DNA of 64,000 nucleotides from Thermophilibacter mediterraneus (GTDB lineage Bacteria; Actinomycetota; Coriobacteriia; Coriobacteriales; Atopobiaceae), in assembly GCF_900119385.1 (NCBI RefSeq), contig NZ_FPKO01000008.1:186001-250000 (forward strand), given 5' to 3'. Position 1 is the stretch's first letter. Each line of letters opens with the position of its first letter. Position numbers and translations under genes: made by a program. This document shows positions 26,386-39,623 of this stretch, piece by piece. The notes below the pieces were generated by a model. The model was not told the origin of the DNA. It worked only from the letters and a program-made list of their open reading frames with translations, and did no database searches.

Positions 26386-26889
26386 TTACCTAGACGCGCC
26401 CGACGCGGAGAAGTCGGGCTTGATCGTGCACTTCCTGATGTCTTCGAGGGCGAGCTCGACGCGCTGCCCGTCGCACTCGAGGGCAACCGTCTCGCCGCCG
26501 GCCTCGCCCTCGATGCCGAGGAGGGTCCCCGTGAAGCGGCGGCGCCCCTCGCCCGGGGTCAGCGAGACCTGGACGACCTGACCCGCGAATCGCGCGAAGT
26601 CGCGCGGCTTGCGCAGCGGGCGGGCCATGCCCGGGGAGGACACCTCGAGCGTGAAGCTCGAGGGGATGGGGTCGAGCTCGTCGAGGACGTCGGAGATCCA
26701 CCCGGTCTCGACCGTCACCTCGTCGAGCGAGATCGTGGGCGCGTCCTCGTCCGCGTGGTCGATGCGAACGCGGACGCACGGCGCCTTGCTCGCGCCGACC
26801 ACCTCGACGTCCACGACGTCGATGCCGCGCTCGGCGGCGCGGGGCTCCAGCGCGTCGATGATCTCCCGCTCAAGGCCTTGCTTGGGCAT
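26386..26889 (-). CDS. rimP: Ribosome maturation factor RimP
   Basis: A 167-residue protein required for 30S subunit maturation. It shows the RimP N-terminal alpha/beta domain (IDVVDVEVVGASKAPCVRVR) and SSPGMARPLRKPRDFARFAG, a family signature, followed by the C-terminal SH3-like barrel. It is the first gene of the nusA-infB operon; the start has GAGGAGGGTTC upstream. Confidence 0.93.
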   Translation of the reverse strand: MPKQGLEREIIDALEPRAAERGIDVVDVEVVGASKAPCVRVRIDHADEDAPTISLDEVTVETGWISDVLDELDPIPSSFTLEVSSPGMARPLRKPRDFARFAGQVVQVSLTPGEGRRRFTGTLLGIEGEAGGETVALECDGQRVELALEDIRKCTIKPDFSASGASR

Positions 26890-26924
26890 GAACCCTCCTC
26901 ACCTCTCCTCACCTGCATACAGAA

Positions 26925-26958
26925 AGGAAGCGGGGCGAGAAGATCCACCCCACTTCCT
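26925..26958 (-). promoter_or_regulatory. Hairpin in the rimP operon leader
   Basis: AGGAAG/GGGG (26925-26935) and CCCC/CTTCCT (26948-26958) can fold into a stem with one mismatch, and on the reverse strand it is followed by TTTCTG, about 35 bases before the rimP start. It may attenuate the operon. The element also contains the GGCGAGAAG string seen in other intergenic regions. Nothing else is recognisable in 26959-27120. Confidence 0.4.
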
Positions 26959-27159
26959 ACGATTACAGCTTCGAATACGCTGGTATTTTACGGTGAATCG
27001 GGGCGTGCGTCAACTAAGCCTCCACGAGATGGCCACAAGCGCGTCGGCGAGCGGACGGGGCGGCGAGGCGACGGGGCCCGCCGCCCGCCGGGGCGCCATC
27101 GCCGACCGCGCGACCGTCGGCCTATACTTGACCCCATGTCACGCGAACTGGGGGTCATC

Positions 27160-28140
27160 ATGGCTGAGAACACACCGAGCTACGTGATGTACGCCGACCT
27201 CAAGCGGTTTGGGCGAGTCTCCAACTACGAGGCGGCGCGCCTGCTGCTCTCGGGCGAGTGCCGGGACGGCGAGCGCCTCTCCCCGCGGGACCGCATCGAG
27301 GACCGCACCTTCCTGTCGCGTCGCGTCGTCAACGCCGCCCCCGGCGAGCTGCCGCCCGACTTCTTCGAGGACGCGGGGCGCGCCGCTCAGTCGCTCGTCT
27401 CGCTCATGCTCTCGCGTCGCCCCCAGGGGGCGGAGAGCCGCGCCGCCATCGAGCGGCACTACGCCGGGGAGGCGCCCGAGGCGATGTGCCGGGCGCTCAG
27501 GGACCACGGCATCGACGCGAACGTCTACCGGAACCTCGTCGCGCGCGTCAGCGCGCGCGAAGACCTCGCCGGGGCGCAGCGGACGGCCCTGCTGCTCACG
27601 CTCTTCCTCGTGATGGGCTGCCGGAGCGACCCTGGCGAGGCCGTCGCGCGCACGGAGGACTTCGTGAGCCGGAACCTGCTGAGCGGGGCCCGGACCGCGG
27701 AGACCTCGCCCGGGGGGCGGGGCCAAGACGACCGCGCGGCGAGCGGCGCCGGGGGGACCGGGCTCGGGCTCATGCGCCTGTTCCCCGACGGGTCGCTGCG
27801 CGCCGTGGTCTACCGGCTCTCCGAGGCGGAGGGCGGCACCGTCGTCGGGTCGCTCGCGTGCGAGCCGGGCTCGATCACGGACGTCGACGCCGACGTCTCG
27901 CGCCGCCACCTGCGCATCGTGTGCGAGAACGGCCGCTGGTACGCCGAGGGACTCGGCTCGACCAACGGGACGGCGATCCTGGCGCCGGGCTCCGATACGC
28001 CCGAGCCGCTCGAGGAGCCCCGGTCGCGTCGCGCCGACGGCGTGGCTCCCGCCCGGAGGCGCATCCGCCACGGCGACGTCCTGCTGCTCGGCGCGACCAC
28101 GCGCTTCCTCGTGGTCCGCCTCGCGCCCGAAGGCGCGTAG
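27160..28140 (+). CDS. FHA domain protein, partner of the downstream kinase
   Basis: A 326-residue protein. The N-terminal 180 residues are helical and unfamiliar. Residues about 195-325 form a forkhead-associated domain, with the phosphothreonine-binding signature VSRRHLRIVCENGRWYAEGL followed by GSTNGTAIL. ATG 27160 has GGGGG 6 bases upstream and is preferred; ATG 27136 in the same frame lies 7 bases after a TATACT box (27123-27128) and would make a leaderless message, so it is a real alternative. It is transcribed towards a protein kinase gene 107 bases downstream, suggesting a phospho-dependent pair. The partner is inferred, not shown. Confidence 0.8.
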   Translation: MAENTPSYVMYADLKRFGRVSNYEAARLLLSGECRDGERLSPRDRIEDRTFLSRRVVNAAPGELPPDFFEDAGRAAQSLVSLMLSRRPQGAESRAAIERHYAGEAPEAMCRALRDHGIDANVYRNLVARVSAREDLAGAQRTALLLTLFLVMGCRSDPGEAVARTEDFVSRNLLSGARTAETSPGGRGQDDRAASGAGGTGLGLMRLFPDGSLRAVVYRLSEAEGGTVVGSLACEPGSITDVDADVSRRHLRIVCENGRWYAEGLGSTNGTAILAPGSDTPEPLEEPRSRRADGVAPARRRIRHGDVLLLGATTRFLVVRLAPEGA

Positions 28141-28247
28141 CGGCACCCAAGGGGCGCCACCGTCCCGCCCCTCGCTCGACTTTTTGCGCAAATTTCTTGC
28201 CCCGAGTCGCGATAACCTGAAAAGACGGGAATACGGAGGGGGGCACC

Positions 28248-30248
28248 ATGACCGCCGAGAGCAGCTCCTCGCGAAGGCTGGTCGAGCTCACGTCGTTCGT
28301 CGCCGCCGCGCCCGCGCGGCCGGGCGGGGACGGACCGGAGCGGCGCTTCCCCCGCCTGCTCGCCGACGACGGCGCGTCTGTGCGCACGGGCGCCACGAGC
28401 ACCGTCTCCCGGGTCGAGAACGCCGCCGGGGAGGCCTTTGCCCTCAAGGTGCTGCGCCCCGCGCGCGAGGGGGCGAGCCCCGCCCTCATGGCCGCCCGCG
28501 AGGACGCCTTCTACGAGGAGTACCGCAACCAGCTCGTGGTCTCGGGCCTGCACGGATTCCCCGAGGTCTTCGGCTTCGGGCGCGCGGGCGGTCGGCCCGC
28601 CATCCTCATGGAGTGGGTCGAGTGCGCGTCGCTTCACCAGGTGGAGCGCGACGCCGGCGTCCCGTGGGACGGCGGGCGCGTCGCGCGCCTGGGGGCCGCC
28701 GTCGCCGCGATCCTCGACAGCACCTCCGCGCTCGACCGCGGGTTCGTCCATCGCGACCTCTCGCCCAGGAACATCGTCCTGCGCACCTCCTCGACGAGCG
28801 TGACCGACCAGCTCGAGACCGGCGAGTTCGACGTGTGCCTCGTGGACATGGGGAGCTCCGTCGCCCTGAGCGACGCGGACGGGTCGTTCACGATGCTCGC
28901 CGACGTGTGGCGCAACGGCACGCCCGACTACGCGCCGCCCGAGATGCTCACGCGCGACGTGACCGGCATCGACGAGCTGCGCCACTCCCCCGCCGTCGAC
29001 GTCTACGCGCTCTGCAGCGTGCTCTACGAGCTCTACGCCGGCTTCGCCCCGTTCCGGGTGTCCGAGCACCCGGAGGCCTCCCCCTACCGGCTCAAGATGG
29101 ACACGTCCCCCGCCCCGCTGCGCGCCCGCTCCTCCCGCGACGAGGGGCTCTGCGCAATCGTCATGGCGGGCCTCGCGCGCGACCCCGAGGGGCGCCCGAC
29201 GGTCGCGAGCCTGCGCGCGGCGCTCGAGGCATGGGTCTCGGGCGACGCCGGGGCTGAGGCCCTTCTCGCCCCCTTCGGCGGGACGCCCCCCGAGGGCGCC
29301 GAGAACGGGGCGAGCGGCGAGAAGGACGGCGCGTCCGGCGACGCCCCCGGGAAGAGGCGCGCCGTGAGCCGTCGCGCGCTCCTCGCCGGCGCGGGGGCCG
29401 TTGCCGCGGTCGGCGTCGTCGCGGCGGCGACGGGGGGCTTCGGGCTCGTCGGGTCGGGCTCGCGGAGGTTTCCCGACCTGACCTGGGACGACCTCGCCGA
29501 GGTCTCGGCCGAGATCGCCGACGCGGGGGGCGAGGAGGCCGCGATCGAGGTGGCCCGGCGCCACGGCATCTGCGACGAGGACGGCCTCATCGACCGCTCG
29601 CTCGTAAAGCCGCTCATGGTCGCGGGCGCCGAGCTCGCGGCCCAGGTGGCGGGCATCGCCCACGACGTGCGCGCCGACGGCTCCCTCATCGGGCTCACCT
29701 TCCTGCTCACGAGCGTGATGCCCGAGCAGCGCGCGATGGCAGACGAGGCGTACCAGGGCGGGTGGGAGACCTCGGGCATGCGCTCGTGGATGGCCGGGGA
29801 CCTCCTCGACCAGCTTCCCGAGGAGCTGGCCCGCAACCTCGTGGCCGCGGCCAAGCTCACCAACAACGTCGGCCCCGCCCAGGACGCGGGAGACGTCACG
29901 GTCACGGAGGACCTGCTGTGGCTGCCCTCGTACTGCGAGCTGGTGGGCGCGCGCGACCGGACCTCGTTCAGCGAGAACTACCAGTACCTCGCCGACGTCC
30001 TCAACGCGGAGGGGTCACAGTACAAGCTCTTCCGCGACCAGGGGCTGCTCGCGCGCGGGGACTACGAGCCGCTCGTCCGCGAGCGCAGGGGCGTCGCGGA
30101 CTACTGGTGGCTGCGCTCGGCGAGCCCGGACGTCTCGCTCAGCGAGGGCATGGCGTACTTCAACCGCACGGCGCCCAACGGAGACCCGTTCCACTACGCC
30201 ACCGCGTGCACCGACGCCTCCGGCGTGCTGTTCGGGTTCTGCGTGTAG
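28248..30248 (+). CDS. Membrane-anchored Ser/Thr protein kinase-like protein with DUF6273-like C-terminus
   Basis: A 666-residue protein in three parts. Residues about 30-340 are a Hanks-type kinase: GATSTVSRV loop, ALKVLRP with the ATP-binding Lys (about residue 67), catalytic loop HRDLSPRNIV (about 168), and GTPDYAPPEML. The metal motif reads VDMGSS in place of DFG. A hydrophobic segment (about 375-400) follows SRRALLAGAG, which resembles a twin-arginine signal but is internal. The C-terminal part (about 405-666) has GGWETSGMRSWM, LWLPSYCELVG, YWWLRSA and a terminal FGFCV, matching the DUF6273 family of putative extracellular modules. A GGAGGGGGG ribosome-binding site precedes the ATG. Confidence 0.82.
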   Translation: MTAESSSSRRLVELTSFVAAAPARPGGDGPERRFPRLLADDGASVRTGATSTVSRVENAAGEAFALKVLRPAREGASPALMAAREDAFYEEYRNQLVVSGLHGFPEVFGFGRAGGRPAILMEWVECASLHQVERDAGVPWDGGRVARLGAAVAAILDSTSALDRGFVHRDLSPRNIVLRTSSTSVTDQLETGEFDVCLVDMGSSVALSDADGSFTMLADVWRNGTPDYAPPEMLTRDVTGIDELRHSPAVDVYALCSVLYELYAGFAPFRVSEHPEASPYRLKMDTSPAPLRARSSRDEGLCAIVMAGLARDPEGRPTVASLRAALEAWVSGDAGAEALLAPFGGTPPEGAENGASGEKDGASGDAPGKRRAVSRRALLAGAGAVAAVGVVAAATGGFGLVGSGSRRFPDLTWDDLAEVSAEIADAGGEEAAIEVARRHGICDEDGLIDRSLVKPLMVAGAELAAQVAGIAHDVRADGSLIGLTFLLTSVMPEQRAMADEAYQGGWETSGMRSWMAGDLLDQLPEELARNLVAAAKLTNNVGPAQDAGDVTVTEDLLWLPSYCELVGARDRTSFSENYQYLADVLNAEGSQYKLFRDQGLLARGDYEPLVRERRGVADYWWLRSASPDVSLSEGMAYFNRTAPNGDPFHYATACTDASGVLFGFCV

Positions 30249-30347
30249 GGACTCGGCGTCCCGTCGCGAGGGCGCCGCGCGCACAACGAGGGCATTGGCA
30301 CGGCGAGAAACGCGCAGCCTGGGGCTCTTATCGCCAGTGCCATCAAA

Positions 30348-30387
30348 CGGGCCACCCTGGCAGACGACGATCTGCCAGGGTGGCCCG
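30348..30387. terminator. Bidirectional terminator hairpin between the kinase and leuS
   Basis: A perfect 17-bp stem, CGGGCCACCCTGGCAGA (30348-30364) with TCTGCCAGGGTGGCCCG (30371-30387), with a 6-base loop, lies in the 208-base gap between two convergent genes. It lacks a T-run. Confidence 0.8.
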
Positions 30388-30456
30388 ATTCGTGGCGACC
30401 CCCGCCAAGGGGGCCTGGCCCGCGACGTCCTCCCGGGCGCGCGGGACGAGGGCTAC

Positions 30457-33024
30457 CTACACGGCAACAATGTTCACCAGGCGGCCGCGGATCACGATGA
30501 CCTTCTTGATCTCTTTGCCGGCGAGCTGCTCCGCCACGGCAGCCTTGGCAGCGGCCTCGAGCTCCTCGTCGGAGGCATCCGCCGCAACGGTCACGCGGCC
30601 GCGCACCTTGCCCTTGATCTGGACGGCGATCTCGACCTCGTCGGCCTTGGCGGCCGCCTCGTCGAACTCGGGCCAGGCGGCGTCGTAGACCGAGCCGTCC
30701 TGGTGCAGCGCCTCGTGCCAGAGCTCCTCGGCCCAGTGCGGGCAGATCGGCGCGAGCATGGTCACGATCGCGTGCGCCACGGCGAAGCAGAGCGCGGCGT
30801 CGCGCCTCTCGACCGGCACGTCGTTCACGTACTTCGACGCGGCGTTGGTGATCTCCATGACCGCGGAGATGGCGGTATTGAACTGGCCGCGGTCGAAGTC
30901 GGCGGTGCACTTGAGGCCCATGCCGTTGAGCGTGCGCCACAGCTCCTTGCCCGCCTTGTCGAGCGAGGCGGCGCTCACGGAGCCGGCCGCGGCGCCCTGG
31001 GAGAGCAGCCAGACCACGCGCCAGGCGCGCTTGATGAAGCGGTTGGCGCCGGCGACGGCCTCCTCGTCCCAGTTGAAGTCCTTCTCGGGCGGGGCGATGA
31101 AGAGGATGGCGAGGCGCATGGTGTCCGCACCGAAGGGCTCGATGACGCTCGAGGGCGGCACGACGTTGCCCTTGGACTTGGACATGGTGTCGCCGTTCGC
31201 GTCCTTGACCATGCCCTGGCACAGCAGGTTCTCGAACGGCTCGTCGCAGTCGATCATGCCGAGGTCGCGCAGGACCTTGGTGAAGAAGCGGCTGTAGAGC
31301 AGGTGCAGGATGGCGTGCTCGATGCCGCCGATGTAGTTGTCCACCGGCATCCAGCGGTCCACGGCCTCCTTGGAGAAGGGCAGCTCCTCGTTGTGGGGGT
31401 CGCAGTAGCGCAGGTAGTACCAGCTCGAGCACGTGAAGGTGTCCATCGTGTCCGTGATGCGCCTGGCCGGCCTGCCGCACTTCGGGCAGGTGGTCTCGTA
31501 GAACGGCGCGTACTCGGCGAGCGTCTCGCCGGCGCCGAGGTCGAGGTTCTCGGGCAGCGTGACGGGCAGGTCCTCGTAGGGCACCGGCACGTCGCCGCAG
31601 CAGTCGCAGTGGATCATCGGGATGGGGTTGCCCCAGTAGCGCTGGCGGCTGATGAGCCAGTCGCGCAGGCGGAACTGCACCGTCTTGCGGCCGAGGCCCT
31701 GCTCGCCGAGCCACTCGATGATGGCGTCGACGGCCTCGGAGTGCTTGCCGCCCTTCATGCCGGTGAACTGCCCGGACTGCACGAGGTAGCCCTCGGCCTC
31801 CATGGCGTGGTCCCAGTCGACGGAGGTCACGACGAGCTCGCGCTCGTCCTTCAGGCGCTCGTAGAGCGGGTCGTCCTTCTCGCAGATGATCGGCGCGATC
31901 TCCAGGCCGTACTTCCTGGCGAAGTCGAAGTCGCGCTGGTCGCCGCAGGGCACGCCCATGACAGCGCCGGTGCCGTAGTCCATGAGGACGTAGTCGGCGA
32001 CCCAGATCGGGGCCGGGCGGCCGTTGACCGGGTTGATGACGTAGCGTCCGGTGAAGAAGCCGTGCTTCTCGCGCTCGGAGCCCTGGCGGTCGACCGAGGA
32101 GACCTTCTCCGCGGCGGCCTTGAGCTCGAGGAAGGCGGCCTCGTGCTCGGTGCCGGCGACGAGCTCGGCGGCGAGGGGGCTCTCGGGCGGCAGCAGGAAG
32201 AAGCTCACGCCGAAGAGCGTGTCAGGGCGCGTGGTGAAGACGGTGATCTTGGTGTCCGTGGGCGTCACGCCGTCGACGTCGGCCAGGGCGAAGTCGATCT
32301 CGGCGCCCTCGGAGCGGCCGATCCAGTTGGCCTGCATCGCTCGGACGCGCTCGGGCCACTTGCCCTCGAGGAGCTTGAGGTCGTCGAGCAGCTCCTGCGC
32401 GTAGTCGGTGATCTTGAAGTACCACTGGGAGAGCGGGCGCTTCTCGGGGATCGAGCCGCAGCGCCAGCACTTGCCGTCGACGACCTGCTCGTTGGCGAGC
32501 ACGGTCTGGCAGCCGGGGCACCAGTTGACCGGCGAGGTGTCGCGGTACACCAGGCCCTTCTCCCACATCTTGAGGAAGATCCACTGGCCCCACTTGTAGT
32601 ACTCGGGGTCGCAGGTGTTGAACATGCGGTCGTAGTCGTAGGAGAAGCCCATGCGGCGCATGGTCTTGACGGCCTGCTCGATGTTCTTGTGCGTCCAGAC
32701 GCCGGCCTGGGTGTTGTGCTTGATGGCGGCGTTCTCGGCGGGCAGGCCGAAGGCGTCGAAGCCCATGGGGTGCAGCACGTCGAAGCCGCGCATGCGGGCC
32801 TGGCGGGCCATGGCGTCGCCGATCGTGTAGTTGCGCGCGTGGCCCATGTGCAGGTCGCCCGAGGGGTACGGGAACATCTCGAGCACGTACTTCTTGGGCT
32901 TGTCGGGGCTCTCCTCGGTCTTGTAGAGCTCCTCGGCGTCCCAGGCCGCCTGCCACTTGGTCTCGATGGCCTCGGCGTCGTAGGCCGGGACCTCGAAGTC
33001 GGTCTTCTTAGCGTCGTCGCACAT
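30457..33024 (-). CDS. leuS: Leucine--tRNA ligase
   Basis: An 855-residue class I aminoacyl-tRNA synthetase of the bacterial LeuS type. The HIGH-like motif is in [20 protein letters not shown] (about residue 49), zinc-ligand cysteines in [12 protein letters not shown] and CWRCG, an editing domain with [13 protein letters not shown], and the KMSKS loop MSKSKGNVV. The length is typical. Start ATG 33024 has AAGGAG upstream; longer frames upstream are not credible. The gene is single and flanked by guaB on the same strand. Confidence 0.96.
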
Positions 33025-35234: not shown

Positions 35235-35273
35235 AGAGACGTTTCACCGCGAGTCTCGATGAGAGGGGGTCCC

Positions 35274-36107
35274 GTGGACGGTGCGCGCGTTGCCGCGGCA
35301 GTACGGCAGATCATGGACGAGACGGGCAGGCGCGAGCCGCGGGCAGGGCGCCACGTCCTCATGCTCGCGTGGTTTGAGGACGAGCTGGACGGGCTGCCGC
35401 CCAACCCCGGAGACTTCGACATCATCTCGGCGAGCGTGCCGCTCCCCAAGATCGTCGGGGAGCGCGAGGAGGCGGATGACTGCCGGAAGGTGGTTCTCGC
35501 CCTCTACTTTAGGACCAAGCGGTTCGTGCAGAGCCTCATGCCCATCGCGGACGAGGGGTCACCGCTCTTTCGCATGCTCACCGCCACCGTCACGAAGAGC
35601 CACCCCGTGCGCCGCGTCAGCACGCCCGACCCCGACAGCGAGCTCATGTCCGACCTCTTTGCCGCCGCGGCGGTGACGTACGCGGAGCGGCGCGACGGCT
35701 GGGAGCAGGTAGTCGAGGCGCTCGGCGTCGCCATCACGGCCCTGGTCTCCCCCGTCGTCCCCGAGGAGGGGACCAGAAGCGCCGACGAGGTGCTCGCCGT
35801 GATCTTGCAGGACATCGCCGCGAGCCCGGAGAGCGCGAGCCTCGCGGACCTGGCGCGGCGCTACTCCTACAGCACCACCTACCTCTCCGAGCTCATCCAC
35901 GAGCGCTGCGGCATGACGTTCACCGAGCTCGTGACCAGGCAGCGCATGGAGCGCGCGGCGATGCTGCTGCGCGCGACGAGCCTTCCGGTGCGCGAGGTGG
36001 CCCGCCAGGTGGGCTACGCCGGGACGAGCAACTTCTACCGCGCGTTCCGGGCGCAGTACGGGTGCGGGCCGGCCGAGTGGCGGAACGCGGACAGCCGACG
36101 GGAATAG
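35274..36107 (+). CDS. AraC-family transcriptional regulator
   Basis: A 277-residue regulator from the GTG at 35274, which has GAGAGGGGG 4 bases upstream; the in-frame ATG at 35259 lacks a ribosome-binding site. The C-terminal 95 residues are a two-helix-turn-helix AraC/XylS domain: SLADLARRYSYSTTYLSELI, then VREVARQVGYAGTSNFYRAF and the closing GCGPAEWR. The N-terminal sensor part (about 170 residues) has no fold I recognise. It converges on a tandem pair of ABC exporters across a shared terminator, so control of those transporters is plausible but unproven. Confidence 0.88.
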   Translation: MDGARVAAAVRQIMDETGRREPRAGRHVLMLAWFEDELDGLPPNPGDFDIISASVPLPKIVGEREEADDCRKVVLALYFRTKRFVQSLMPIADEGSPLFRMLTATVTKSHPVRRVSTPDPDSELMSDLFAAAAVTYAERRDGWEQVVEALGVAITALVSPVVPEEGTRSADEVLAVILQDIAASPESASLADLARRYSYSTTYLSELIHERCGMTFTELVTRQRMERAAMLLRATSLPVREVARQVGYAGTSNFYRAFRAQYGCGPAEWRNADSRRE

Positions 36108-36111
36108 ATCG

Positions 36112-36180
36112 GCCGACCGCGCACACCCCCGGTTTTTCAGGGAGCTTGGGCCCTGAAAAGCGGGGGTGTGCGCGGTCGGC
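36112..36180. terminator. Long bidirectional terminator between araC-like gene and ABC exporter
   Basis: Arms GCCGACCGCGCACACCCCC (36112-36130) and its exact complement (36162-36180) continue, after a short bulge, into GTTTTTCAGGG / CCCTGAAAAG. This gives about 28 paired bases around an 8-base loop, with T-runs on both sides, between convergent genes. Confidence 0.85.
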
Positions 36181-36193
36181 TGAGGCACCTCCC

Positions 36194-37786
36194 CTACTTC
36201 ACGCGCTCCAGCCGCCCGTCGCGGACCTCGTAGATGCGGTCCGCCGCGGCATCGAGGTCATTCGAGTGCATGATGGCCACGACGGTCTTGCACCCCTTGA
36301 GCCCCGCGAGGTAGTCGCAAAGCCGCGCGCTCGTGGCGGCGTCGAGGTTTGTGAGCGGCTCGTCGAGCAGAACCGCCGGCTCCGTGCGCGAGAGGGCGCG
36401 CAGCAGGCCCAGCTTCTGGCGCTCGCCGAGCGAGAGGTTGAGCGGTTGGTCGGTGATGGCACGCTCGGGGAGGTCGCCCAGGTCGAGCGCGCGAGCGACT
36501 TCCTGGTCGGCCGCACCGCCGAGGAGGTTGTAGGTGAGGTCCCCAGTGAACACGGGGACGGGATACGTGAGGTACGCTGCGTCCAGGAGCTCCGGCGCGA
36601 GCACGGCCTCGCCGTCGAGGTCGGCCGGGTCCGAGAGAGCGCGCAGGAAGTCGAGAAGGCGGGACTTGCCCGTGCCGTTGGCGCCGCGCACCACCACGAG
36701 CTCGCCGGGGCGCACCTCGAGCTCCCCCGCGAAGAGCCGCTTGCCATCCGCGCCGCGCTCGGGGGTGGCCCAGAGCGTCCCCTCCACGTGCGCCGCGGAA
36801 CCGTCGGAGCCCTTCGTCGCGAGCGCCTCGAAGCCAGAGGGCTCCGAGGCCTCGGCCGCCGCGCCGCGCAGGCGCTCGACGTGCGGCAGGTTGCCGCGCA
36901 CCTGAGCCACATGCTGCACGATGGCGGTGAGCGGCGCCTGCACGAGCTGCGCGAGCGAGTACGCCACGAGCACCTGCCCCACGCCCGCCGCGCCCGCAGC
37001 GCAGCGCCAGGCGGCGACCCCCATCATCGCCGCCGCAAGCACGCAGGCAAGCAGCGTGGGCGCGTTCGAGATGAGCGTCTCGAGAAAGCGGTAGCGCAGA
37101 ATCGTGCCCACGTAGGCGTCCGAACGCTCGCGGTAGCGAGCCGAGAAGTATGTGTCGGCCCCTGAGGCGTTTATGGCGCGCTTGGACTCGACGATGCGCT
37201 TGGACTCGCCGAGCCAGGCGTCCTGCGCGGGGAGGATGTCGCGCTGGAGCGCGGCGAGCGAGCGCGCGGGGAGCCGCAACGCGAGCCAGAAGACGGGCAC
37301 GTACGCCACCATGAGCGCGGCCATCAGCGGGTCGATTGCCGCTGCGAGCGCCATGATGCCGAAGAGGGCGAGCGCCGCCCCGGGCACGCGCACGTTGACG
37401 GCCGCGTAGAGGGTTCCGTAGATGTCCGCCGAGCTCGAGAGGAGGTTGACGTGATAGCCCTTGTCGTGGCGCTCAAAGGCGCGCTGCGACGCGGACAGCA
37501 GCCCGCGGACGCACCGCACGGCGGCGGCGAAGCCGCGGCGCAAACCCACCCAGGTGGGCACGCACTCGCCGAGCGCGACCGTGGCCGCGGCGGCGGACAG
37601 CGCGAGGGCGAGCGCGGCGACGAGCGGCGCGGCGACGTCCGCCCCGCCGGCGGCGAGCTTGTCGACGATGCCGCCCACGACGACGCTCGTCGCAGCCGCG
37701 AGCAGCGTCGCCGCGGCCGTGCCCAGGGAGCGAAGGCAGTTTGACGGGGTGGGGTCGAGCAGCGGATATGACGTCTTCTCTTTCAT
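36194..37786 (-). CDS. ABC exporter half-transporter, copy 1
   Basis: A 530-residue fusion of a transmembrane domain (about residues 1-320, some six hydrophobic stretches) and an ATPase domain: Walker A RGANGTGKSRLLDFL, signature LNLSLGERQKLGLLRAL (LSLGE in place of LSGGQ), Walker B AVLLDEPLTNLD and H-loop AIMHSNDLD. MKEKTSYPLLDPTPSN at 37786 aligns with the start of the neighbouring paralogue and is preferred over a GTG at 37843. It probably forms a heterodimer with the upstream gene. The substrate is unknown. Confidence 0.82.
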   Translation of the reverse strand: MKEKTSYPLLDPTPSNCLRSLGTAAATLLAAATSVVVGGIVDKLAAGGADVAAPLVAALALALSAAAATVALGECVPTWVGLRRGFAAAVRCVRGLLSASQRAFERHDKGYHVNLLSSSADIYGTLYAAVNVRVPGAALALFGIMALAAAIDPLMAALMVAYVPVFWLALRLPARSLAALQRDILPAQDAWLGESKRIVESKRAINASGADTYFSARYRERSDAYVGTILRYRFLETLISNAPTLLACVLAAAMMGVAAWRCAAGAAGVGQVLVAYSLAQLVQAPLTAIVQHVAQVRGNLPHVERLRGAAAEASEPSGFEALATKGSDGSAAHVEGTLWATPERGADGKRLFAGELEVRPGELVVVRGANGTGKSRLLDFLRALSDPADLDGEAVLAPELLDAAYLTYPVPVFTGDLTYNLLGGAADQEVARALDLGDLPERAITDQPLNLSLGERQKLGLLRALSRTEPAVLLDEPLTNLDAATSARLCDYLAGLKGCKTVVAIMHSNDLDAAADRIYEVRDGRLERVK

Positions 37787-37840
37787 GATCTGTCCAATCT
37801 GGCGCTTTGTGCGCCGTCCTCGCAGAGATGTATCGTGCCC

Positions 37841-37903
37841 CACCTCGCACGACGCCGCCTTTGAGGGGCGATTCGACCATCAAAACGCGCGACGTGCGAG
37901 GTG
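37841..37903. repeat. Inverted repeat between the two ABC exporter genes
   Basis: CACCTCGCAC (37841-37850) and GTGCGAGGTG (37894-37903) are exact complements around a 43-base spacer in the gap between the two half-transporter genes. It could be a processing or partial termination site, or an operator. Confidence 0.55.
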
Positions 37904-37919
37904 AGCGGAGAGGCAGGGG

Positions 37920-39530
37920 CTATCTCACGCGTTCCAGCCGCCCGTCGCGGACCTCGTAGATACGGTCCGCCGCAGCGTCGAGGTCGTCCGAGTGCATAAT
38001 CGCGACCATAGTGCGGCTGCCGCGCAGGCCGGCGAGGTAGGAGCACAGACGCGAGCGCGCGCCCTCGTCGAGGTTGGCGAGCGGCTCGTCGAGAAGCACC
38101 ACCGGCTCCGGGCGCGAGAGCGCGCGCAGCAATCCCAGCTTCTGGCGCTCGCCGAGCGAGAGGTTGAGCGGCTGGTCCGTGATGGCACGCTCGGGGAGGT
38201 CGCCCAGGTCGAGCACGCGCGCGACCTCGGGGCCGGCCGCCTGGCCGAGCAGGTTATCCCCGAGCGTGCCGGGCACGACCGGCACCGGGTAGGTGAGGTA
38301 GGCCGCGCCGAGCGCCTGGGACGAGAGCTGCGCCTCGCCGTCGAGGTCGGCCGGGTCGGAGAGGCCGCGCAGGAAGTCGAGCAGACGGGACTTGCCCGTG
38401 CCGTTGGCCCCGCGGACCACGACGAGCTCGCCGGGGCGCACGTCGAAGCTCCCCGCCCAGAGCCGCTTTCCGTCCTCGCCGCGCTCCGGCGTGGCCCAGA
38501 GCGTCCCGTCCACGCGCGCCACCAGGTCCTTCTCGCCCGCCGCGAGCGCCTCGAAGCCGGAGGGCTCCGCAGCCTCGGCCGCCAGTTCGCGCAGCAGGTC
38601 GAGGTTGCCGCGCATGGCCACGCAGAAGCTCACGAGCGAGCAGCACTCCGCCATCGGCGCCTGCACGAGCGAGAAGAGCTGCCAGGCCGCAACCGCCGCG
38701 CCCAGCGTGACCGCACCCGTCGACCAGAGCGCGGCGCACACGGCGAGCACCACCACCTGCAGCGCCGGCGAGATCGCCGTCGGCAGCGCCGTCTGGACGC
38801 AGTCGGCCACGCCCTGCCGGCAGCGACGCGCCTGGTACTCCCGCGCGCATCCCGCAAAGCGCTCTGCATAGAACCCCTCGGCGCCGGAGGCGTTGGCCGC
38901 GCGCTTCTCCTCCACGACCCTGCGGATCTCCTCCTTCCAGGCGTCGCGCGCAGGCACCATCTCCACGAGCAGGCGACTCGCCTCGCGCGCCGGCGCCCAG
39001 TTGACGACGAAGTAGAGCGCGAACCCCACAAGAAACACCGGCACGAGCACCACGTCAATCGCCGCAGCGCACGCCAGCAGCGCGACGGACGCGATCAGGC
39101 ACCCCACCACGTTCACGGTGAGGTAGACCAGCATCGATCCGTAGCCAAACGCCGCCTCGTTCACGGCGGTGAGGAGGTGACCGGCGTCGTGGCGCTCGAA
39201 CGCGCGCTGCGACAGGGCGAGCACCTTGTCCACCGCATCCTTCGACGCGTCGAGCTCAGCCCACAGGTTCTCCCTCATCGGCAGCCAGTCGTCGAGCAGA
39301 AACTTCGCGAGCGCAGCCGCCAGCGTGACGGCGAGGTAGGCCGCGAGCCGCGCTACGGTCTCGCCCGGCGCCAGCGCGCCCGACGCGATGCCGTCGACGA
39401 GGCCTCCCAGCACGTAGGCCGCGCCCGCCGAGAGCACGGTCCCGGACGCCACGCCGAGCGCGAGAGCCACGCGGCGCGGCGTGGGCGCAAAGAGCGGGTA
39501 CGCCTTCCCGCGCGAGGTTCCCTTTGTCAT
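37920..39530 (-). CDS. ABC exporter half-transporter, copy 2
   Basis: A 536-residue paralogue of the next gene, with a six-segment membrane domain and an ATPase domain carrying RGANGTGKSRLLDFL, LNLSLGERQKLGLLRAL, VVLLDEPLANLD and AIMHSDDLD. From about TLWATPERG to the C-terminus the two proteins are almost identical, while the membrane domains are far apart in sequence. ATG 39530 has AAGGAG 6 bases upstream and is chosen over the in-frame ATG at 39560. Together with copy 1 it would make a complete exporter. Confidence 0.83.
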   Translation of the reverse strand: MTKGTSRGKAYPLFAPTPRRVALALGVASGTVLSAGAAYVLGGLVDGIASGALAPGETVARLAAYLAVTLAAALAKFLLDDWLPMRENLWAELDASKDAVDKVLALSQRAFERHDAGHLLTAVNEAAFGYGSMLVYLTVNVVGCLIASVALLACAAAIDVVLVPVFLVGFALYFVVNWAPAREASRLLVEMVPARDAWKEEIRRVVEEKRAANASGAEGFYAERFAGCAREYQARRCRQGVADCVQTALPTAISPALQVVVLAVCAALWSTGAVTLGAAVAAWQLFSLVQAPMAECCSLVSFCVAMRGNLDLLRELAAEAAEPSGFEALAAGEKDLVARVDGTLWATPERGEDGKRLWAGSFDVRPGELVVVRGANGTGKSRLLDFLRGLSDPADLDGEAQLSSQALGAAYLTYPVPVVPGTLGDNLLGQAAGPEVARVLDLGDLPERAITDQPLNLSLGERQKLGLLRALSRPEPVVLLDEPLANLDEGARSRLCSYLAGLRGSRTMVAIMHSDDLDAAADRIYEVRDGRLERVR

Positions 39531-39623
39531 GTTCTTCTCCTTCCACGAGACTGACGTCATCGTAGGGGCAAGAAGAACAGCGCAGGTCAGGACAGCGCCG
39601 CGTCCGAAACCGCGTCCTCAGAC

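Follow-up and report, generated by a model that had tools for sequence, protein, structure and literature searches.

Within a 64,000-nucleotide stretch of the 2.37-Mb genome of Thermophilibacter mediterraneus (contig NZ_FPKO01000008.1, positions 186,001 to 250,000 of the forward strand; the whole stretch is called the window, and coordinates refer to it unless stated otherwise), a gene for an FHA-domain protein and a gene for a membrane protein kinase with a DUF6273 module lie on a common strand, separated by 107 bp. Our analysis suggests that the kinase may be a ligand-sensing receptor that signals via the FHA protein as a dedicated adaptor, working like the mycobacterial pair PknH-EmbR and belonging to another family; on balance, we consider this moderately likely. 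The reading builds on features found in the sequences, namely the conservation of the pair, the co-divergence of its members, the catalytic residues, the swapping of sensors, a lectin-like structural model, and a twin-arginine (RR) motif. The open reading frames and the Pfam matches above cut-off (FHA at residues 239-273 of the FHA protein, hereafter the partner; Pkinase at 47-322 and DUF6273 at 484-628 of the kinase) agreed with the first-pass annotation, which had described an FHA protein and a kinase from the letters of the window.

Co-occurrence was determined in 396 Coriobacteriia genomes, including our own genome, by searches with two profiles: one (A4) covers the helical N-terminus of the partner and was used at E ≤ 1e-3, the other (A5) covers the kinase domain and was used at E ≤ 1e-40. 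The partner was detected in 94 genomes, the kinase in 86, and both in 84, our own among them; 10 genomes had just the partner, 2 just the kinase, and 300 had neither (Fisher p 8.5e-72). A kinase was located within 5 kb of 106 of the 121 partner places, and 102 of these 106 shared a strand, with the partner first in 43 and the kinase first in 59. All 20 genomes with a kinase-domain match above 150 bits had an FHA gene in a set of 60 relatives. The nearest named relatives were uncultured Atopobiaceae (61-62% identity), followed by Collinsella, Enorma, Candidatus Limicola and Enterorhabdus; the pair is not a chance one, since its two genes are conserved beyond the genus. Distances between partners were correlated with those between kinase domains (r 0.84, 60 pairs), the highest value of 2000 permutations being 0.16. 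In a draw of 396 genomes from the phylum, the partner domain was found in 13, of which 12 were our own genome or members of its order, and the one match beyond the order was marginal (E 7e-4, 64 of 173 positions). As far as sampled, the partner domain is a Coriobacteriia trait.

Three observations speak against so close a partnership: 15 of the 121 partner places had no kinase inside 5 kb; some kinase-less partner places adjoin PP2C/VWA or SpoIIE-type genes instead; and the distance permutations leave in the shared ancestry of the host genomes, so that part of the correlation must come from common descent. Two of the 15 lone places belong to one genome (G018) with two kinases and two partners at separate spots. 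There, a 1819-amino-acid S-layer-homology/beta-helix surface protein is encoded between one partner and kinase (L077, G018:C22, 3298-14217), and the second kinase and partner are 32 kb apart on another contig (G018:C10). In kinase-less genomes, the partner, or a weak FHA match, was seen beside VWA and PP2C genes (L164, L149) or near a 5TMR-LYT/HAMP/SpoIIE sensor phosphatase (L140, L145); such neighborhoods are again a phospho-signalling setting. The first-pass annotation had proposed a compact signalling pair and had named a lack of conserved co-occurrence, or loss of kinase activity and of ATP binding, as evidence against it. On the computational side, the genes were found together in 84 genomes at the p value given above, and the catalytic residues, including those for ATP binding, were kept. 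The two genes very probably function together.

The kinase domain was compared among 72 distinct kinases from fetched loci, a part of the 116 kinase places in the genome sample; 11 named loci (L066-L076) that duplicate genome loci were dropped from the census and the upstream counts described below. Genes were called with a simple purpose-written script rather than an established program. Seven of the 72 kinases had no partner called within three genes; a six-frame search showed a partner beside the kinase in L130, L135, L150 and L175, which were gene-caller misses. The match to Pkinase (PF00069) reached 57.7 bits against a cut-off of 31.7 (E 1.5e-15), placing the protein in that family. K67, HRDLSPRN (168-175), DMG (200-202) and PPEML (230-234) were all present as first described. 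K67, E91, H168, D170 and N175 were retained in 72 of 72 kinases, D200, G202, T225, P231 and E232 in all 71 with residues at those positions, R169 in 70 of 72, and T215 in 66 of 72. DMG in place of DFG, which had been singled out as a departure, turned out to be ordinary variation with no sign of lost function: the middle residue (201) was F in 49 kinases, L in 13, M in 9 and a gap in 1. A pseudokinase reading drawn from DMG was rejected, since position 201 varies among the 72 and the catalytic residues are kept. Judged by these residues, the kinase looks catalytically complete, and nothing points to a dead enzyme.

Typical Ser/Thr kinases have Lys in the motif HRDxKPxN, at the position of Ser172 in the present kinase. 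HRDxS was found in place of HRDxK in 71 of 72 kinases and is, with a missing arginine of the FHA domain described below, more telling than DMG. Pkinase matched at five places in our own genome, and another kinase there reads HRDISPRN, so Ser172 is not peculiar to the pair. Gram-positive Hanks-type kinases are best known as PASTA cell-wall sensors. No Pfam match to PASTA repeats was found in the kinase protein, which scored 43.6 bits with the PASTA kinase model NF033483 against a threshold of 450 and thus falls outside that family (Stk1/PknB).

The first-pass annotation had also noted an outer module other than PASTA, and this was both upheld and extended. The module matched DUF6273 with 44.8 bits against a cut-off of 23.5 (E 1.6e-11), and residues 405-666, modeled from 19 sequences, gave a mean predicted local distance difference test (pLDDT) score of 92.7. 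In the IgA peptidase of Thomasclavelia ramosa (9qa6), residues 32-282 aligned to the model with Z 14.1 over 173 residues at a root mean square deviation (rmsd) of 2.8; this region has been reported as the DUF6273 domain of that peptidase (PMC12402451, in the part cited). A viral structure library returned 21 matches below 0.001, several of them named DUF6273; a Foldseek search of the same model against the PDB returned nothing below 0.001. Counting against a lectin-like fold, the best Z to true C-type lectins and to Treponema variable protein 1 was only about 5, and with this aligner a Z below 8 may reflect a mere common arrangement. Published models already place DUF6273 as C-type-lectin-like (PMC10743442, in the part cited). 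For the DUF6273 end, a C-type-lectin-like fold was thus modeled with confidence, a likeness that the first-pass annotation had not noted.

The outer module is interchangeable, judging from an architecture census made with profiles built in this analysis (some kinases were checked with Pfam), a feature that the first-pass annotation had missed. DUF6273 followed a single membrane span in 19 of the 72 kinases (in L169, the span was visible at a lower threshold only) and WG repeats did so in 10; 35 had at least three spans and neither module, 6 had no span, and 2 had a single span of another kind. A neighboring gene that we call 'c7', recognized at more than 20 bits by a profile built here whose low-scoring members are uncertain, lay beside 27 of the 35 multi-span kinases and 0 of the 37 others (p 5e-13); at 40 and 60 bits, the counts were 21 and 16 of 35, with 0 of 37 throughout. 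The c7 proteins have a conserved helical-looking end, a low-complexity stretch and, in several, an N-terminal hydrophobic segment; no Pfam match was found in the four members tested. They look like exported proteins, as does the example at L079:9271-10071, with its low-complexity linker. It would thus appear that some kinases bear their sensor in cis and others receive it in trans, the kinase domain and the partner staying constant.

One membrane span (377-395) was predicted after the kinase domain, with S-R-R (374-376) immediately before it. The motif was counted first in a narrower window, which was widened after the sequences had been seen, and both counts were repeated with one span threshold. 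The wider motif, [STAN]RRx[FLAVIG][LIVFAMT] directly before the span, was found in all 19 DUF6273 kinases and in 9 of the 10 WG kinases, with S or T as the first residue in all 28, compared to 2 of 35 multi-span kinases and 1 of 168 internal single spans of other proteins (p 1e-31); the tenth WG kinase reads HRRRKF before its span. A first count with the wider motif, at a different span threshold, had given 2 of 139 control spans. The narrower motif was found in 15 of 19 DUF6273, 6 of 10 WG and 6 of 35 multi-span kinases and in 4 of 168 control spans (p 5e-18). The linker before the motif was otherwise poorly conserved. A twin-arginine motif before a mildly hydrophobic span, as expected of a substrate of twin-arginine translocation (Tat), was therefore present in 28 of 29 DUF6273/WG kinases, indicating a putative internal Tat signal behind a kinase part of 370 residues and bearing out the twin-arginine-like membrane segment of the first-pass annotation.

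The two arginines could also be a cluster of positive charge that stops transfer, with insertion by Sec/YidC. Several results lean that way and against Tat. NCBIfam/Pfam Tat models matched the RR segment in 6 of 10 trimmed proteins, none over cut-off, and unrelated models matched it in two others of the ten. RR of any kind preceded 33 of the 168 control spans and the first span of 20 of the 35 multi-span kinases (29 of 29 in DUF6273/WG kinases). Stop-transfer charge would not readily account for the distribution of S/T-R-R, which 28 of 29 DUF6273/WG kinases have at the span but only 2 of 35 multi-span kinases and 1 of 168 control spans; in addition, the wider motif was found at 4 of 67 N-terminal single spans, and three of these, from two genomes of the same genus, look by eye like Tat lipoproteins. 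We regard insertion by Sec/YidC as rather unlikely and predict that export of the sensor is probably Tat-dependent. Among free-standing DUF6273 proteins, one of another family (L030) has an in-frame ATG that gives a Tat-like signal and a lipobox-like Cys, and others have plain spans. The kinase is very probably inside and the module outside.

In the partner model, built from 28 sequences (mean pLDDT 88.7), residues 6-173 form a domain of helices and residues 199-324 an FHA fold; the linker between them was predicted poorly. The FHA match reached 31.9 bits against a cut-off of 20.7 (E 1.8e-7), and the fold aligned to 3po8 with Z 14.2 and an rmsd of 1.9 over 98 residues, so that both profile and fold identify an FHA domain. 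The conserved Ser, His and Asn of FHA loops serve binding, and the Arg after the conserved Gly contacts phosphate. Gly230, Ser247, His250, Ser267, Asn269, Gly270 and Thr271 were kept in 64-69 of 69 members (binding-loop S in 68, H in 69, N in 64). The first-pass annotation had offered the FHA gene as a phosphothreonine reader; these residues support that role, and two findings count against it. The usual Arg was absent in 68 of 69 members (Ser231 here), the residue after Gly230 being Ala in 38, Ser in 18, Cys in 6, Thr in 3, Phe, Tyr and Leu in 1 each, and Arg in 1; and three other readable FHA domains of our own genome (L001, L003, L004) keep GR. With the Arg so widely lost, the role of phosphothreonine reader is unproven.

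The same loss could mean that the FHA fold has given up phosphothreonine binding; the partner would then act as a regulator or scaffold independently of phosphorylation, with a constitutive kinase interface. A dead site would not need Gly230, Ser247, His250, Ser267, Asn269 and Gly270, which are nevertheless kept in 64-69 of 69 members, and the binding of MupFHA to its kinase has been reported as unusually specific (PMC4238996, in the part cited); we consider such a scaffold unlikely. Docking of the FHA domain on the phosphorylated kinase, as the adaptor reading has it, is about as likely as not.

About 173 residues of the partner form a conserved helical domain, which the first-pass annotation had missed and for which no Pfam family match was found. 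Searches with the whole partner model gave Foldseek and VIA lists filled by FHA domains, among which a known fold for the helical domain may have gone unseen. Against PDB sequences, the domain matched two repeat proteins (E 0.0012 and 0.0014), which, from their names and repeats, we take to be designed, a protein whose name calls it designed (0.095) and a transposase (0.66); all were put down to composition. A weak resemblance to helices 1-2 of HTH_3 was detected: a 69-sequence profile of residues 1-66 scored 19.9 against the HTH_3 proteins of our own genome, the best of 100 column shuffles being 15.2. The comparison is weak (HHalign probability 19% over 20 columns, and an earlier 27-row test was tied by 1 of 40 shuffles), and the resemblance is a lead only.

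A palindrome, TTGCGCAA, was found no more than 250 bp upstream of 16 of the 72 kinase genes, compared to 47 of 595 other genes (p 0.0004), and led 96 palindromes of the same composition upstream of kinase genes (16, next 4). In 39 of 84 loci, the gene cluster had a copy at most 300 bp away, and the palindrome precedes the partner gene in a kinase-less genome (L186). With the HTH_3 score, which beats all 100 shuffles, these positions would fit control of the EmbR type, in which the partner is DNA-binding through a divergent helix-turn-helix N-terminus and docking switches a regulon, perhaps at TTGCGCAA. Slightly more sites were also found per genome in the 14 genomes of the genus with the pair than in the 17 without it (mean 15.8 vs. 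12.1, p 0.10). Set against this are the low HHalign probability over 20 columns and the tied shuffle test, the lack of any helix-turn-helix Pfam family match in 27 members at E ≤ 5, and the sites of pair-less genomes: in G019, 9 of 15 are no more than 100 bp from the start of a called gene. Control of the EmbR type is therefore improbable, and a DNA-binding output of the partner equally so. The palindrome as the operator of the partner was demoted, and another factor probably binds it, because pair-less genomes carry sites, many near gene starts in G019.

Of the 20 sites in pair-less G026, 8 are internal to called genes and most of the rest fall in long open frames. Our own genome has 16 sites: about 10 are intergenic, several of them before proteins with apparent signal peptides (by eye), two are in a repeated stretch that resembles 16S rRNA by eye, and about three are inside open frames. 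In the pair-less genome G019 (C11, about 55.6-60.7 kb; L234, L235), VWA-like and kinase-like genes, identified by eye, each have GTTGCGCAAC less than 100 bp upstream.

For the adaptor reading, which we prefer, the following course of events is envisaged; orientation, Tat export, ligand sensing and docking in it are inferred. The catalytic domain would stay in the cytoplasm, and the single span with its internal twin-arginine signal would take the folded DUF6273 sensor outside. A surface ligand (candidates are a sugar, a cell-wall fragment, or a neighbor or host protein) would alter kinase activity, probably by clustering, and the active kinase would autophosphorylate its activation segment, with Thr215 as the best candidate. 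The partner would dock on the kinase and then be phosphorylated or released, and its helical N-terminal domain would carry the output. Relatives keep the kinase domain and the partner and change the sensor, which may be lectin-like, made of WG repeats or, where the kinase has several spans, a separate protein that looks exported. Taken as a whole, a family of receptor kinases in which an interchangeable sensor (lectin-like or of WG repeats) is exported by Tat already folded, from an internal signal that follows a whole cytosolic kinase domain, with a constant FHA adaptor that has a re-tooled phosphate site and, in a sister branch, a separate exported sensor that docks on a multi-span kinase, is a tentative picture, with slightly less than an even chance of being right.

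The outer domain of PknH is reportedly also of a non-PASTA type, as in the present kinase. PknH-EmbR of Mycobacterium tuberculosis further resembles our pair in its adjacent kinase gene in one operon and in the helical middle and C-terminal FHA domain of EmbR; the FHA domain was required for interaction with PknH, and EmbR phosphorylation was not found in vivo during normal growth (PMC9239209, in the part cited). It differs in that EmbR has an OmpR/PhoB-type DNA-binding domain and a BTAD, whereas neither had a Pfam match in 27 partners at E ≤ 5, and in that the present sensor is interchangeable and follows an RR motif. The partner is not of the EmbR type, because the DNA-binding and BTAD domains find no match; by VIA, EmbR aligned to the FHA part only (model 196-322). 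PknQ-MupFHA of Mycobacterium ulcerans likewise joins a kinase and an FHA protein on one plasmid, and MupFHA binds residues of the PknQ activation loop and suppresses autophosphorylation; the part cited mentions no lectin-like sensor (PMC4238996).

Cyanobacterial kinase-CLec proteins diversified by retroelements combine an N-terminal kinase with a C-terminal C-type-lectin domain; they are mostly predicted to be cytosolic, and no FHA partner is mentioned in the part cited (PMC7517822). Tentaclins and the T. ramosa IgA peptidase share the DUF6273 Pfam family and a similar fold, and are modules of phages or of a secreted peptidase rather than of kinases in the parts cited (PMC10743442, PMC12402451). 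The actinobacterial Rieske protein QcrA exports a folded C-terminal domain with a non-cleaved internal Tat signal, for which an RR-to-KK change was the test used; according to the part cited, two Sec-inserted spans precede that signal, unlike the soluble enzyme domain of our kinase (PMC4383559). No description of the pair was found among the open full-text papers searched, most subscription journals lying outside the search. What is unusual in it is the plug-in sensors, the conserved internal twin-arginine segment and the altered FHA site; the catalytic core is ordinary.

Table 1. Features of the FHA partner and membrane kinase genes in the window.
Feature	Position	Strand	Basis
FHA partner gene	27160..28140	+	ATG 27160 to stop 28140, 326 amino acids; start backed by alignment of relatives
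Partner N-terminal all-helical domain, residues 1-173	27160..27678	+	Model, pLDDT 87-98 per ten-residue block to residue 170
FHA-fold domain, partner residues 199-324	27754..28131	+	Pfam, model, structure match; Ser231 replaces usual Arg
Palindrome TTGCGCAA	28184..28191	.	64 bp before kinase start; recurs upstream of kinase/partner genes of relatives
Membrane kinase gene	28248..30248	+	ATG 28248 to stop 30248, 666 amino acids
Protein kinase domain, residues 47-322	28386..29213	+	Pfam; catalytic residues aligned
Activation-segment Thr215, candidate autophosphorylation/docking site	28890..28892	+	T in 66 of 72 kinases
S-R-R (374-376) and single membrane span (377-395), predicted internal Tat signal	29367..29432	+	Span prediction, motif counts
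DUF6273 module, predicted extracytoplasmic, C-type-lectin-like, residues 405-666	29460..30245	+	Model, structure match

The pair forms an islet of two + strand genes with rimP-nusA-infB and leuS on its two sides, all on the - strand; we assigned these four names by eye. Across genomes of the genus, the interval between rimP and leuS (26889-30457) behaves like an insertion site. The ends of the two genes that face each other shared a contig in 27 of 31 of these genomes: the gap was 187-1790 bp in 20 genomes, 3.6-15.9 kb in six carriers of the pair (G000, G006, G010, G014, G016 and G018), and 35.6 kb in G012, with no pair detected there. The orientation of the pairs suggests repeated use of the site: those of the DUF6273 type (G000, G006, G016) oppose the direction of rimP and leuS, whereas those of the WG type (G010, G014) run with it. 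The pair thus seems to come and go as an islet. Elsewhere in the window, an AraC-like regulator adjoins two tandem half-size ABC transporters (35259-39560, by eye).

An anti-phage defence role for the kinase was also considered, as the PADLOC models mad6 and PD-T4-6 matched with up to 83 bits. The PASTA-type kinase of our own genome scored up to 485 bits with the same models, which makes the matches generic, and the neighbors, by the names given above, are rimP-nusA-infB and leuS. A PD-T4-6/MAD6 defence kinase was rejected for want of a specific match, and a defence role is very improbable.

The adaptor reading implies a plug-in design, in which one type of kinase and one type of adaptor serve different outer sensors, and swaps or fusions of the sensor would be a direct way to ligands and outputs. 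If the Tat step is true, a folded domain that lies behind a cytosolic enzyme, in the interior of a long protein, would be exported; to our knowledge, the Rieske protein is the precedent for such internal Tat export. The altered FHA site, in turn, would test which residues are needed for reading a phosphopeptide.

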